59,844 nucleotides of DNA from an uncultured Agathobacter sp. (GTDB taxonomy: Bacteria; Bacillota; Clostridia; Lachnospirales; Lachnospiraceae), in NCBI GenBank assembly GCA_944381555.1, contig CALWLL010000045.1, forward strand, positions 1-59,844, given 5' to 3'. Below, piece after piece: positions 43,698-49,236 of the stretch. The translations under genes were made by a program, and so were the position numbers. The first letter of the stretch is position 1; every line of letters begins with the position of its first letter. A model generated the notes under the pieces. It was not told the origin of the DNA, searched no databases, and saw only the letters and a list, made by a program, of their open reading frames with translations.

Positions 43698-43726
43698 TTG
43701 ACACTAAACACGGAAAACTGTAATAT
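43698..43726 (+). promoter_or_regulatory. Promoter of the pfl operon
   Basis: A perfect TTGACA (43698-43703), a 17-nt spacer and TAATAT (43721-43726) lie about 75 nt before the start codon, giving a short leader. Confidence 0.75.
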
Positions 43727-43800: not shown

Positions 43801-45903
43801 ATGGAATATTTATACGAGGGCTGGGAAGGCTTTGAAGCAGGTACATGGGTAAAAGAAATCAATGTCCGCAGCTTTATCCGCCACAATTACACGCCATATG
43901 ATGGTGATGAAGCATTCTTAGAGGGTGCAACAAACGATACTTTAGACCTCTGGAATCAGGTAACAGAGTTATCAAAGAAAGAGCGTGAAGCAGGCGGTGT
44001 TCTGGATATGGACACTGAAATTGTAACAGGCATCACATCTCATGGACCAGGTTATTTAAATAAAGACAAAGAAAAAATTGTTGGCTTTCAGACAGATAAG
44101 CCGTTTAAACGTGCCTTTCATCCATACGGAGGAATCCGTACAGCAGAAAAAGCGTGTTTGGACAACGGATATGAAGTAGATCCAAAGGTAAAAGAATTTT
44201 TTACCATTCATCGGAAAACACACAACGCAGGTGTATTTGATGTATACACGCCTGAAATGCGTGCATGCCGTTCCAGCCATATCATTACAGGTCTTCCGGA
44301 TGCATACGGACGTGGACGTATTATCGGCGACTATCGCAGGGTAGCGCTTTATGGTGTTGACAGACTGATTGAAGATAAGATGGAGCAGAAAGAAACAACC
44401 CGTTCTGCTATGTACTCAGCAGTTATCAGAGAACGTGAAGAATTAGCAGAACAGATTCGCGCGCTTCATCAGTTAAAGGAAATGGCAGCAAGCTATGGCT
44501 ATGACATTTCAAAACCTGCAAGAAATACACAGGAAGCAATCCAGTGGCTTTACTTTGGCTATCTGGCAGCAGTAAAAGAACAAAACGGTGCTGCAATGTC
44601 TCTTGGAAGAACATCTACATTCCTTGATATTTATGCAGAGAGAGACCTAAAGGCAGGCGTATATACAGAGAAAGAGATTCAGGAATTGGTAGACCAGTTC
44701 ATCATGAAGCTTCGTCTTGTAAAATTTGCGCGTACTCCGGAATATAATGCGCTCTTCTCAGGAGACCCACAGTGGGTAACAGAATCTATTGCAGGTGTAG
44801 CAATTGACGGACGTCATATGGTTACAAAGATGTCATACCGTTATCTGCATACATTAAAGAACCTTGGACCTTCGCCGGAACCAAACTTAACAGTACTCTG
44901 GTCTGTAAATCTTCCGGAAAACTTCAAGAGATTCTGTGCGAAGATTTCCATTGAAACTTCTTCCATTCAGTACGAAAACGATGACTTAATGCGTTTCACA
45001 CATGGTGATGATTATGCGATTGCATGTTGTGTATCATCTATGCGTGTTGGTAAAGAGATGCAGTTCTTCGGCGCTCGTGCAAACCTTGCAAAATGTCTGC
45101 TTTATGCAATCAACGGTGGTGTGGATGAAATCAGCCACAAGCAGGTAGGCCCGGAATACAGACCAATTACATCCGAATATCTTGATTATGATGAAGTAAT
45201 GAAGAAATTTGACGACATGATGGAATGGTTAGCAGGCGTTTATGTAAATACTTTGAATATTATTCACTATATGCATGACAAGTACTGTTACGAAAAGATC
45301 CAGATGGCTCTTCACGATAAGAACGTAACAAGATGGTTTGCAACAGGTATTGCAGGTCTTTCTGTTGTAGCGGATTCGTTATCTGCAATTAAATATGCAA
45401 AAGTACGTGTTATCCGTGATGAAACCGGTCTTGCAGTAGACTATGAAGTTGAGGGAGATTTCCCGAAATATGGTAATGATGATGACCGTGTAGATGAATT
45501 GGCTCGCGAAGTTGTTCATACCTTCATGAAACATATCCGCAAGAACCACACTTACAGAGGCGGAATTCCAACAACTTCCATCTTGACGATTACTTCTAAC
45601 GTAGTATATGGTAAAAATACAGGATCTACACCAGACGGACGTAAAAAAGGAGAAGCATTTGCACCGGGTGCAAACCCAATGCACAGAAGAGATACTCATG
45701 GTGCAGTTGCATCTTTGGCTTCTGTTTCAAAACTTCCATTTATTGATGCGCAGGATGGTATTTCCAATACATTCTCTATCATTCCGGGAGCACTTGGAAA
45801 AGAAGACAAAATCTTTGTTGGCGATATTGATGTAGATATTGACTGTGGTGGAGCATGTTCATCACCAACACTTTTTGAAAGTCTTGATACTGACAACGAA
45901 TAA
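43801..45903 (+). CDS. pflB: Pyruvate formate-lyase catalytic subunit lacking the glycyl-radical domain
   Basis: This 700-residue protein matches pyruvate formate-lyase along residues 1-670, with the catalytic Cys 409-Cys 410 in [18 protein letters not shown], the GPSPEPN loop and [17 protein letters not shown] are also present. Normal enzymes are about 740-760 residues and end in a glycyl-radical domain. Here, homology stops near residue 670 and a new tail of about 30 residues follows, rich in Asp and containing CGGAC (682-686), then TAA TAG. The missing domain is the next gene, in another frame with its own ribosome binding site. ATG at 43801 follows AAAGGAGAATATGTA. It cleaves pyruvate with CoA to acetyl-CoA and formate when complexed with the small subunit. 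Confidence 0.9.
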
Positions 45904-45923
45904 TAGAAAGGAGATTTATCATT

Positions 45924-46166
45924 ATGGCAGCAACACAGAATCAGGTTGATAACTTAGTAGCACTTTTGGATGGTTATGTTAAAAAAGGCGGACATCATCT
46001 CAATGTAAATGTATTCAGCAAGGAAATGCTTCTTGATGCACAGGCACATCCGGAAAAATATCCGCAGCTTACAATTCGCGTCAGTGGTTATGCTGTTAAT
46101 TTCAATAAATTAACAAAGGAACAGCAGGACGAGGTAATTTCCCGTACTTTCCACGAACAGATTTAA
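45924..46166 (+). CDS. Stand-alone glycyl-radical subunit of pyruvate formate-lyase
   Basis: This 80-residue protein is the C-terminal glycyl-radical domain of pyruvate formate-lyase as an independent gene. It has [42 protein letters not shown] with the radical Gly 55, and [10 protein letters not shown]. It starts with its own ATG behind AAAGGAG, 20 nt after the large subunit, and stops 14 nt before the activase gene. E. coli GrcA/YfiD is a similar domain that repairs oxygen-cleaved full-length enzyme, but there the main enzyme keeps its own domain. Here, the large subunit lacks it, so this subunit should be essential for activity. Confidence 0.92.
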
Positions 46167-46180
46167 GGAGAATGTGACGT

Positions 46181-46936
46181 ATGGAGGGATATGTTCATTC
46201 CATTGAAACGTTTGGCACGGTAGATGGCCCGGGTATAAGATTTGTAATCTTTATGCAGGGCTGTCCTCTGCGCTGCAGATATTGCCATAATCCGGACACA
46301 TGGGATTTGCATGGCGGTAATCGTATGTCCGTAGAGGAAATTCTAATGCAGTATCGTAAGAACAAAGCCTTTTACAGTAAGGGTGGGATTACGGTTACCG
46401 GCGGGGAGCCGCTGCTTCAGATTGATTTTTTGTGCGAGCTTTTTCAAAGAGCGAAAGAACAGAAGATTCACACCTGTATCGATACATCGGGAATTACTTA
46501 TCATACAGACAATACAGAATATAACGGGAAGCTGGATACCCTGATGCAGTATACAGACCTTGTTATGCTGGATATTAAGCATATTGACAGAGAAGCGCAC
46601 CATGAACTGACAGGTGCGTACAATGAAGGGATTCTTGATTTTGCCCGGTATCTGGAGAAAAAGAAGATTCCGGTCTGGATACGCCATGTGGTAGTTCCGG
46701 GAATTACCGACAAAGAGGAGTATCTTCTTGCACTTGGCAGATTTATCGGCAGTTTGTCGAATGTTAAGGCGTTGGACGTGCTTCCATACCACACCATGGG
46801 CGTGGAAAAATACCGCAAGCTTGGAATCCCATACTCTTTAGAAGGAGTAGAGCCAATGAGCGCTGAGGGAGCAAAAAGAGCAAAGGAAAGTATTCTGTCA
46901 GGAATCAAAGAGGTGCGGCAGAAAAATAAGAAATAG
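46181..46936 (+). CDS. pflA: Pyruvate formate-lyase activating enzyme
   Basis: This 251-residue radical-SAM enzyme has the cluster motif CPLRCRYC (Cys 28, 32 and 35), the GGEPLLQ SAM-binding strand and MLDIKHID. It uses a 4Fe-4S cluster and S-adenosylmethionine to abstract hydrogen from the glycine of the radical domain. In this organism, its target glycine is on the separate 80-residue subunit encoded 14 nt upstream. The length and TFGTVDGPGIR start are standard for PflA. TAAGGAGAATGTGACGT precedes ATG. Confidence 0.95.
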   Translation: MEGYVHSIETFGTVDGPGIRFVIFMQGCPLRCRYCHNPDTWDLHGGNRMSVEEILMQYRKNKAFYSKGGITVTGGEPLLQIDFLCELFQRAKEQKIHTCIDTSGITYHTDNTEYNGKLDTLMQYTDLVMLDIKHIDREAHHELTGAYNEGILDFARYLEKKKIPVWIRHVVVPGITDKEEYLLALGRFIGSLSNVKALDVLPYHTMGVEKYRKLGIPYSLEGVEPMSAEGAKRAKESILSGIKEVRQKNKK

Positions 46937-46946
46937 AGCATAAATC

Positions 46947-46981
46947 AGGGTGTAGGGAATGATTTTTCCTATGCCCTTTTT
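46947..46981 (+). terminator. Terminator of the pfl operon
   Basis: AGGGTGTAGG (46947-46956) pairs with CCTATGCCCT with wobble pairs, followed by a T-run reaching into the degenerate repeat. Confidence 0.7.
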
Positions 46982-47125: not shown

Positions 47126-47551
47126 ATGATAAATAGAAACACAGTAAAAAACATACTGCTTTCTTTAATTCTGATGGGGATAGTGTCATTTGCTTCCTTG
47201 CTGCTGCTTGGTGTTCTTACCTACACGCTTACATGGAAAGCGCCGCAGGCAATGATAGGAATCACGCTGACATATATCTTAAGCGGCCTTGCAGGCGGTA
47301 TCCTGTCAGGTGTTCTCGACAGAAAGGGCAGCGGCGTCGCAGGACTTGAGGCAAAATCAGAGTTTTGTGGCCGTGTGGCATATGGTTTCCTGTTGGGAAC
47401 GGCTTATATGGTAATACTGATTGCCGCCTCCATAATGTTCACGGAGAACGGAAGGTGGGATTTCATACGTCTAATCATGCTGTGGGTTCTTCTGAGCTGC
47501 AGCAGTGTTTTAGGCAGCTTTATGTCCAGTATATTTTGTAAAAAACGTTGA
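47126..47551 (+). CDS. TIGR04086 family membrane protein
   Basis: This 141-residue protein has four hydrophobic helices and a short soluble loop (LDRKGSGVAGLEAKSEF). It matches the TIGR04086/YrzE-like family, often encoded beside the SCIFF peptide genes in Clostridia, as here. Its function is not known. The ATG follows GGATGGAGGGGTC; an in-frame ATG 39 nt upstream lacks a good site. The SCIFF gene begins 92 nt later behind its own promoter. Confidence 0.85.
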   Translation: MINRNTVKNILLSLILMGIVSFASLLLLGVLTYTLTWKAPQAMIGITLTYILSGLAGGILSGVLDRKGSGVAGLEAKSEFCGRVAYGFLLGTAYMVILIAASIMFTENGRWDFIRLIMLWVLLSCSSVLGSFMSSIFCKKR

Positions 47552-47558
47552 AAACCCC

Positions 47559-47618
47559 TTTTCATATTGGAAATCATGTGCTATACTACCTAAGAGTGGG
47601 TAAACGTGTGTGTTTACC
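47559..47618 (+). promoter_or_regulatory. SCIFF promoter and 5' hairpin
   Basis: TTTTCA (47559-47564), a 17-nt spacer and TATACT (47582-47587) form a promoter. The transcript would begin almost directly with GGTAAAC/GTTTACC (47599-47618), a 7-bp hairpin with a 6-nt loop that could protect the 5' end of a short, abundant mRNA. Confidence 0.55.
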
Positions 47619-47643
47619 AATAACGAGAAAGGAAGATTGCCTT

Positions 47644-47787
47644 ATGAAACATGTAAAGACATTAAATACAAAGAAATTACAGAACACAGTAAAGAAAGGC
47701 GGATGCGGAGAATGCCAGACATCCTGCCAGTCAGCCTGCAAGACATCCTGTACAGTAGGAAACCAGACTTGCGAGCAGTCTAAGTAA
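47644..47787 (+). CDS. scfA: SCIFF ranthipeptide precursor (six cysteines in forty-five)
   Basis: This 47-residue peptide has a short leader (MKHVKTLNTKKLQNTV) and a core with six cysteines at 21, 24, 28, 32, 36 and 43 in the pattern GGCGECQTSCQSACKTSC. This is the SCIFF family, nearly universal in Clostridia. The radical-SAM enzyme encoded next links cysteine sulfurs to non-alpha carbons, giving a ranthipeptide; related peptides have been tied to quorum-like control of metabolism. GAAAGGAAG precedes ATG. A terminator separates it from the maturase, so the precursor should be made in excess. Confidence 0.95.
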   Translation: MKHVKTLNTKKLQNTVKKGGCGECQTSCQSACKTSCTVGNQTCEQSK

Positions 47788-47822
47788 TTAGACACAGAAG
47801 TACATAATAAGTAAAACATTCA

Positions 47823-47857
47823 CGACCGTTCGCGTTGCGTCCGGTCGATTGTTTTTT
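47823..47857 (+). terminator. Terminator between SCIFF and its maturase
   Basis: CGACCG (47823-47828) and CGGTCG (47842-47847) form a 6-bp stem with a 13-nt loop, followed closely by six T. Partial read-through would give more precursor than enzyme. Confidence 0.7.
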
Positions 47858-47877
47858 GTATAGAAGGAGGAAAAATC

Positions 47878-49236
47878 GTGGTACATCAGTATAAAAACAA
47901 TGGGTACAACATTGTGTTAGATGTCAATAGTGGTGCAATTCATGTCGTAGATGACGTCTCTTATGATGTTATTGCTCTTTTCGAAGAAAATAAACCGGAA
48001 GAGATTGTAAGCAGGCTGCTGGAGAAGTATTCAGAAGCAGAAATAAAAGAAGCGCTGGAAGAGGTGCAGGCGTTAAAAGATTCCGAAGAACTTTTTACAG
48101 ACGATCCATATGAAAACTACATCTTAGACTTTAAGAAACGTCCGACCGTCGTTAAGGCGCTTTGTTTACATATCGCGCATGATTGTAACCTTGCCTGCAA
48201 ATATTGCTTTGCGGAGGAAGGGGAATATCATGGAAGACGTGCGCTTATGGATTTTGAAACAGGAAAACAGGCGCTGGATTTTCTGATTGCAAACTCAGGA
48301 CAGAGAAGAAACCTTGAGGTAGACTTCTTCGGCGGTGAGCCGCTTATGAACTGGGATGTAGTAAAACAGCTTGTAGCATACGGCCGGGAGCAGGAAAAAA
48401 TCCATGATAAGCATTTCCGTTTTACACTTACCACAAATGGAGTGCTCTTAGATGACGAAGTGATGGAATTTGCAAACCGTGAAATGGACAATGTGGTTCT
48501 TAGTATTGATGGAAGAAAAGAAGTGCATGATAAGATGCGTCCGTTCCGCAAAGGTGCGGGAAGCTATGATTTCATCGTTCCGAAATTCCAAAAACTTGCG
48601 GAAAGCAGAAATCAGGAGCGCTATTATGTGCGTGGGACATTTACACATCACAATCTTGATTTTTCAAAGGACGTGCTTCACCTTGCAGACCTTGGCTTTA
48701 AGCAGATTTCCGTAGAGCCTGTAGTTGCGCAGGATTCGGACGATTATGCAATACGGGAGGAAGATTTACCAATCCTTTTTGAAGAATATGACAACCTTGC
48801 GAAAGAGATGGTCCGCCGTAAAAAAGACGGAAATGACTTTAATTTCTTCCATTTTATGATTGATTTGGAAGGAGGCCCATGCGTGGCAAAACGTCTTTCC
48901 GGCTGTGGTTCGGGAACAGAGTATCTGGCGGTTACACCTTGGGGTGATTTATATCCATGTCATCAGTTCGTGGGAAATGAAGCATTCCTCATGGGGAACG
49001 TATGGGACGGCGTGAAGGCAACGGAGATTCGTGATGAATTTAAATGCTGTAACGTATATGCAAAAGAAAAATGCAGAAATTGTTTTGCAAAATTCTATTG
49101 CAGCGGCGGCTGTGCGGCAAACTCATATAACTTTCACGGAAAGATTACGGATGCATATGATGTAGGCTGTGCGCTTGAGAAGAAGCGTGTGGAATGTGCG
49201 ATTATGATTAAGGCGGCTGAGGCTGAGCTGGAGTAG
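47878..49236 (+). CDS. scfB: SCIFF thioether maturase (radical SAM, SPASM)
   Basis: This 452-residue protein has an N-terminal peptide-recognition segment (1-90, wHTH/RRE-like), the radical-SAM motif CNLACKYC (Cys 103, 107 and 110) with FGGEPLMNW, and a C-terminal SPASM-type region. That region has LYPCHQF, CCNVYAKEKCRNC and YCSGGC, which bind extra iron-sulfur clusters. It installs thioether links in the SCIFF peptide encoded just upstream. Translation starts at GTG behind AAGGAGG. The order SCIFF, maturase, secDF is the standard clostridial one. Confidence 0.94.
   Translation: MVHQYKNNGYNIVLDVNSGAIHVVDDVSYDVIALFEENKPEEIVSRLLEKYSEAEIKEALEEVQALKDSEELFTDDPYENYILDFKKRPTVVKALCLHIAHDCNLACKYCFAEEGEYHGRRALMDFETGKQALDFLIANSGQRRNLEVDFFGGEPLMNWDVVKQLVAYGREQEKIHDKHFRFTLTTNGVLLDDEVMEFANREMDNVVLSIDGRKEVHDKMRPFRKGAGSYDFIVPKFQKLAESRNQERYYVRGTFTHHNLDFSKDVLHLADLGFKQISVEPVVAQDSDDYAIREEDLPILFEEYDNLAKEMVRRKKDGNDFNFFHFMIDLEGGPCVAKRLSGCGSGTEYLAVTPWGDLYPCHQFVGNEAFLMGNVWDGVKATEIRDEFKCCNVYAKEKCRNCFAKFYCSGGCAANSYNFHGKITDAYDVGCALEKKRVECAIMIKAAEAELE

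Follow-up and report, generated by a model that had tools for sequence, protein, structure and literature searches.

A candidate naturally split pyruvate formate-lyase in an Agathobacter genome and a possible third component among its relatives

Pyruvate formate-lyase (PFL) is a textbook case of an enzyme killed by oxygen. We describe here a locus that appears to encode it in two pieces, in a 59,844-nt stretch of contig CALWLL010000045.1 (assembly GCA_944381555.1) from an uncultured Agathobacter sp. of the Lachnospiraceae; the whole of this stretch is referred to as the window. Three genes follow one another on the same strand (Table 1), namely pflB', for a large protein with the active-site cysteines; a small gene, for the glycyl-radical domain that the large protein lacks; and pflA, for the activating enzyme, whose start lies 14 nt downstream of the small gene. 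This layout had been proposed in a first-pass annotation, with which we agree on the coordinates, frame and residue count of the large protein, on the small protein with its own translation signals (by counting and profile match), and on PflA (by family match). The large open reading frame (ORF) ends in a double stop, TAA TAG, and has an alternative in-frame start upstream (ATG 43750), which would lengthen its product from 700 to 717 aa.

Table 1. Features of the split PFL locus and its flanks, in window coordinates
Feature	Coordinates	Strand	Description
pflB' (catalytic subunit, split PFL)	43801..45903	+	700 aa, Cys409-Cys410, glycyl-radical loop absent
C-terminal tail of pflB', 33 residues after ALGK	45802..45900	+	Cys peptide at end, 45841-45900
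AAAGGAG, Shine-Dalgarno-like, for small gene	45907..45913	+	read from sequence
Glycyl-radical subunit, NCBIfam GrcA3	45924..46166	+	ATG 45924; 80 aa, Gly55 in RVSGYAV
pflA, radical S-adenosylmethionine (SAM) PFL-activating enzyme	46181..46936	+	251 aa; TIGR02493 306.4 bits, cut-off 231.75
Possible promoter TTGACA-17-TAATAT	43698..43726	+	match to consensus alone
Terminator-like hairpin 3' of pflA	46947..46977	+	13 pairs, then TTTT

The PflB profile TIGR01255 matches the large protein with 1099.9 bits (cut-off 994.2) over positions 2-666 of 744, and its remainder, 664-743, is matched by the small protein, so that the two together account for a single PFL and barely overlap. The boundary also runs through the Pfam Gly_radical domain, near position 50 of 106: profile positions 1-51 belong to the large protein and 49-106 to the small one. 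By alignment the large subunit corresponds to E. coli PFL from residue 1 to about 680 and the small subunit to about 683-759, the aligned stretch being 683-757. Cys409-Cys410 aligns with the adjacent catalytic Cys pair of solved PFLs. The locus therefore shares with PflB (TIGR01255; E. coli 1H16) the whole catalytic barrel, the Cys-Cys pair, an activase partner and the radical motif, but whereas an ordinary PFL carries the radical Gly and the Cys pair on the same chain, here they lie on two polypeptides, cut between E. coli positions about 680 and 683.

A full-length pflB elsewhere in the genome (2.31 Mb, 97.8% complete) was looked for, and PF02901 gave no match other than pflB'. The sole Gly_radical match besides the split PFL is on contig C21, and it looks like a class III ribonucleotide reductase, judged by eye from its sequence and an NrdG-like neighbour.

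By score, the small protein is a member of the NCBI family GrcA3 (NF038360; 166.1 bits, above the cut-off of 158). With GrcA/YfiD (TIGR04365) it shares the character of a small protein bearing a radical domain, but it lacks the N-terminal half of that model, matching only the last 60 of 126 positions with 97.5 bits (cut-off 170). The first-pass annotation had set the protein apart from the GrcA repair part, which these scores uphold, although the family to which it belongs had already been named by NCBI. Could it nevertheless be a spare part only, that is, an autonomous repair cofactor next to an ordinary PFL? Membership in GrcA3 speaks for this, as do the solo copies of the small gene described below and the NCBI annotation of a corresponding pair in Collinsella as pflB and grcA3. 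Against it stand the small protein's 80 residues, short of the GrcA model, and above all the state of its partner: the adjoining PFL itself lacks a radical domain, and since the genome yielded no complete PFL, a repair cofactor would have no intact enzyme to work on. We consider the spare-part explanation improbable. A partner lacking the radical domain would make the small protein an obligate subunit, which the name GrcA3 does not say, and at split loci we suggest that the term "autonomous cofactor" is misleading.

The same two-gene arrangement was sought in related genomes. For a family survey, 150 genomes of the same family, one per genus, were searched with the small protein, and 128 gave a match. 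The 80 regions fetched comprise the short-frame hits listed, minus one at a contig edge (G097:C33), plus a set of the fused ones; they contain 59 split pairs (in 59 genomes), seven solo small genes (each in a different one of these 59) and 14 fused genes, including two contig-end fragments. With the window counted as the 60th split locus, PflA is encoded in the fetched region of 56 of the 60. A long PFL-type frame at E≤1e-20, as read from the table, is present in three of the 59 split genomes (G085, G119 and G132). The split arrangement is thus widespread and not singular to the window. Across the 295 genomes of an order survey, counting by eye gave short frames for the radical domain in at least 30 genomes of family f11, at least two of f22 and at least one of f8, with a 94-aa frame in f2 (G330) as a doubtful addition; all of these are known from the match list alone.

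A scan of named genomes returned at least 588 loci, of which the best 80 comprise 74 split, four fused and two cut by contig ends. The split forms among these 80 include those of Lacrimispora, Blautia, Catonella morbi, Ruminococcus bicirculans 80/3, Massilimicrobiota and Beduini, and also of Collinsella aerofaciens, Olsenella uli and three spirochaete assemblies (metagenome-assembled genomes). The pairs in Collinsella, Olsenella and the spirochaete assemblies suggest transfer between phyla. One split pair (L189; OY725839.1) is carried by a plasmid whose 100-kb record is assigned to Subdoligranulum variabile.

To judge whether the split is genuine, the two surveys were pooled into 130 distinct split loci, window included, leaving out four contig-end fragments (L096, L097, L132 and L177) and four duplicates; the tail of L154 and the middle gene of L117 (see below) were delimited by hand. 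Wherever a contig end does not cut into them, the pooled loci all retain the Cys pair and the Gly motif, R(V/I)SGYAV. The small gene starts in all three frames relative to the large stop codon (15, 19 and 17 loci for frames 0, 1 and 2, among the 51 loci with no gene in between), and an AGGA-type site is found just upstream of its start in 64 of 70 split loci (those of L105-L184, duplicates left out), whereas 5.9% of random 15-mers contain one. Its ratio of nonsynonymous to synonymous differences (pN/pS) is 0.06 (13 pairs), indicating purifying selection.

These observations bear on two further explanations. A sequencing frameshift or a decaying pfl gene would account for the fact that both ORFs together make up one PFL, but it would have to recur in 130 distinct loci from many assemblies, in random frames, under purifying selection, with a ribosome site and start of its own for the small gene and, in 79 loci, with another gene intervening; its chances are negligible, and the earlier dismissal of a simple frameshift stands. 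A programmed frameshift or stop read-through, giving a fused chain, would suit the short gaps in many two-gene loci and especially L036, in which the large gene, stop and small gene are all in frame with a gap of zero. The distribution of frames argues against it, as do gaps of more than 100 bases in several two-gene loci and the order large - pflA - small in L034, and we regard it as highly improbable. A functional two-subunit PFL, as the first-pass annotation proposed, is by contrast well supported at the level of sequence: the pair recurs in 59 of 150 genomes, its motifs are kept, and it is the only PFL found in the window's genome.

In most relatives examined, an ORF of about 55-90 residues lies between the large and small genes (hereafter the middle gene); the cultured commensal Lacrimispora amygdalina (L121) is an example of such a three-gene locus. 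The N-terminal half of its product is similar to residues 1-30 of the small protein, where the radical domain starts: three middle proteins match NF038360 with E values of 4e-5, 3e-4 and 0.03, and a profile of 23 middle proteins, chosen by us from the 36 then in hand, matches the window's small gene (E 2.5e-5). The C-terminal half is a Cys motif that reads like MGCTDCSRTPLACSVPTLHQGLDD. All 23 aligned sequences share one Cys, an Ala-Cys pair and a Pro; beyond this set, the last part is missing from L025 and L030, and Pro-Cys is found in L120 and L180. Middle proteins mostly have two or three Cys each. No Pfam or NCBIfam family describes the three that were scanned, and pN/pS for the middle gene is 0.22 (13 pairs), so that it evolves under constraint. 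A phylum survey with the middle profile, whose sample held few members of the families known to carry the gene, gave matches in 15 of 398 genomes, one of which (G177, same family) has a separate middle gene; the other 14 matches are N-terminal halves of radical domains.

A search of the window's genome with the middle profile found no separate middle gene. The large protein there ends instead in the tail listed in Table 1, which the first-pass annotation had described as about 30 new residues; these are present, but they are not an arbitrary novelty, since they resemble the Cys half of the middle protein. Against a profile of middle Cys halves (built from 76 of the 79 middle proteins, leaving out L025, L030 and L117) the tail scores 21.9 bits, a value reached by none of 200 shuffles. 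The two forms exclude each other in the pooled loci: 79 have a middle gene and no tail Cys, 46 (including the window) have tail Cys and no middle gene, none has both, and five have neither (L034, L066, L166 and two Collinsella). In 30 of the 46 Cys tails the resemblance to the middle Cys half is matched by at most 1% of shuffles. The tail has a pN/pS of about 0.22 (21 pairs from seven sequences), a rough figure because pS is saturated (0.87). We propose, on sequence grounds, that the middle gene and the Cys tail are two forms of an undescribed third component of split PFL. Among the literature matches listed, which consist of partial texts, the middle protein is not mentioned.

In Collinsella, L175, L176 and L188 have a split PFL without the Cys element, and perhaps represent a natural minimal pair; pflA is not annotated in the stretch of L188 shown, for which the gene table is incomplete.

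It might be argued that the two forms are unrelated by-products, the Cys tail being a chance extension of the large protein and the middle gene having decayed from a second copy of the small gene. Consistent with this, 16 of the 46 tails are not significantly like the middle Cys half, five loci do without either form, and AlphaFold2 predicts the Cys part at low confidence. Unrelated by-products would not, however, be expected to give zero co-occurrence in 130 loci, nor invariant residues and a pN/pS of about 0.22 in the middle gene. In addition, the best tree of large subunits shows 14 switches between the middle and tail states. Its well-supported branches are by themselves enough to force 7-8 changes of each label, so that the exclusion does not go back to a single chance event passed on by descent. 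We therefore view the by-product explanation as unlikely, though it retains some weight.

Quick trees were made from 68 and 140 large subunits, the latter after dropping five short rows and L169. In both, all split forms fall in one clade with a Shimodaira-Hasegawa-like approximate likelihood ratio test (SH-aLRT) support of 100, and seven fused PFLs lie outside. A clade of seven further fused PFLs (six without L171; four in the 68-sequence tree) nests inside the split clade. Re-fusion of this whole nested clade was considered and the claim was dropped, as a single fission, with the fused clade placed outside, is compatible with approximately unbiased (AU) tests (p 0.15 when L171 is included, 0.32 and 0.17 when it is left out). 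Re-fusion is accordingly claimed only for L055, the best case, a fused PFL with the Cys peptide CGCEEVTC in the linker between barrel and radical domain, which the tree places within the split clade among three-gene forms. It is likely, from its sequence, to be a re-fusion of the two-gene form, as expected if the large and small proteins are halves of one enzyme. The two-gene form itself may have arisen when a deletion fused the middle gene's Cys half onto the large gene.

The best explanation of the locus is that it encodes a naturally split PFL, to which we assign a probability of roughly 0.85. From the observed anatomy, distribution, conservation and mutual exclusion, we infer the following course of assembly, activation and exchange, and a role for the third element in it. 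The small subunit, supplying the last strand and the radical loop, would dock on the large subunit, which holds the active-site Cys pair; PflA would then install the radical on Gly55, from which it would be handed on to Cys409/410, as happens in ordinary PFL. Cleavage by oxygen would be confined to the small subunit, which is cheap and could be resupplied. The N-terminal half of the middle protein copies the stretch around the recognition-element strand GGQHLNVNV (about 701-709, counted from the alignment); according to PMC8683613, residues 696-733 of E. coli PFL form the recognition element. We propose, because of this likeness, that the N-terminal half is a place-holder for the vacant strand-10 site, a docking decoy that would fill it while the radical subunit is away. 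The Cys peptide might guard the opened site as a thiol quencher, a redox switch or a metal site, and once tethered to the large subunit it would make the N-terminal half dispensable. Either role for the third element, place-holder or thiol guard of the empty radical-domain site, is a possibility. The fuller picture of a modular enzyme, with an exchangeable radical cartridge and a decoy partner with guarding cysteines, reduced in the window's lineage to a fused Cys tail, is offered tentatively, as something we find rather doubtful in its entirety.

An artificial split of E. coli PFL shows by analogy that such an enzyme is chemically possible: when the protein was cut at residue 695 and combined with YfiD, the radical was taken up weakly, and activity once activated equalled wild type (PMC8683613). 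Several points weigh on the other side. In the same study, the binding of YfiD to E. coli PFL ending at residue 695 was too weak to be quantified, which means that a split enzyme needs further adaptations. The NCBI name GrcA3 implies a spare part, and the genome also encodes a pyruvate:ferredoxin oxidoreductase, so that PFL is not the sole route to acetyl-CoA. The 16 Cys tails that resemble the middle Cys half no better than 1% of shuffles count here as well, as do the five loci with neither form, from which it follows that the third element is not strictly required. AlphaFold2 models of two read-through chains, made from natural in-frame neighbours, are mediocre (mean predicted local distance difference test score (pLDDT) 67; predicted template-modelling score 0.68 and 0.71), with the Cys parts at pLDDT under 50, a quality too poor for these parts to be positioned. 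Finally, no biochemical or proteomic evidence for a split PFL was found in the literature searched. Compared by Foldseek with E. coli PFL (2PFL), a joined two-gene chain gave a template-modelling score of 0.74 and a root-mean-square deviation of 6.5 over 801 columns, which does no more than confirm a PFL fold.

Two solved structures deposited as "Formate acetyltransferase", PDB 38LA and 38LB (687 and 739 aa), are the best-scoring chains for the four large subunits tried, and from their sequences they look like large subunits of the split type. The small protein matches neither at E≤1e-10, and no small chain is seen in either entry; 38LA may be a shortened construct. A CxxC tail (GECDMCEMK) is present in 38LB, whose highest score among the four is with the large subunit of Olsenella. 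Both are absent from the best 50 fold-library matches listed (library to April 2026). These entries and the name GrcA3 indicate that the split is not wholly unknown and that others may be working on it. The name GrcA3 itself did not occur in the literature searched. No natural split PFL is described in the titles and opening lines of abstracts among the matches listed, which cover subscription journals thinly and are weak evidence of absence, or in the excerpted passages of papers on related enzymes.

The accessory subunits of benzylsuccinate synthase (BSS) and 4-hydroxyphenylacetate decarboxylase (HPAD) are likewise small Cys-containing partners of glycyl-radical enzymes, but differ from the middle proteins, which mostly have two or three Cys. 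With the middle profile, no chain of the BSS/HPAD type was matched in the PDB at E≤10, where three chance-like matches were obtained. BSS beta controls thiyl-radical formation (PMC12590467), and it provides a precedent for a small partner in this role, beside the proposed cysteine guard.

Many gut Lachnospiraceae and their relatives thus seem to hold the vulnerable glycine of PFL on a separate, cheap subunit, some with spare copies. If this is true, these bacteria could replace only the oxygen-destroyed part of the enzyme, and the survival of oxygen pulses by anaerobes becomes testable in one operon. Natural large/small pairs are available for in vitro work on split PFL, and an unnamed protein family, that of the middle gene, may control the enzyme.

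The spare copies are the solo small genes, seven of the 59 split genomes carrying an extra copy with no large gene in the fetched stretch; judged from sequence context, they fit a reserve of radical subunits and give indirect support to the idea that the small subunit is replaceable. Three (L053, L067 and L092) closely follow a Crp/Fnr-type regulator gene and are possibly redox-controlled spare parts. Three more (L047, L064 and L078) have as neighbour a gene cluster that resembles, by eye, a spoIIIA operon, and L086 has neither kind of neighbour.

With regard to the flanks of the window locus, the scan that gave the possible promoter found seven promoter-like sites against a mean of 9.9 in shuffles, that is, no excess. 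Further downstream, at 47548-49236, a short Cys-rich peptide (GGCGECQTSCQSACKTSCTVGNQTC) is encoded directly 5' of a radical-SAM-like protein with a Cys-rich C-terminal part, a pair that we take to resemble the SCIFF peptide and its maturase.

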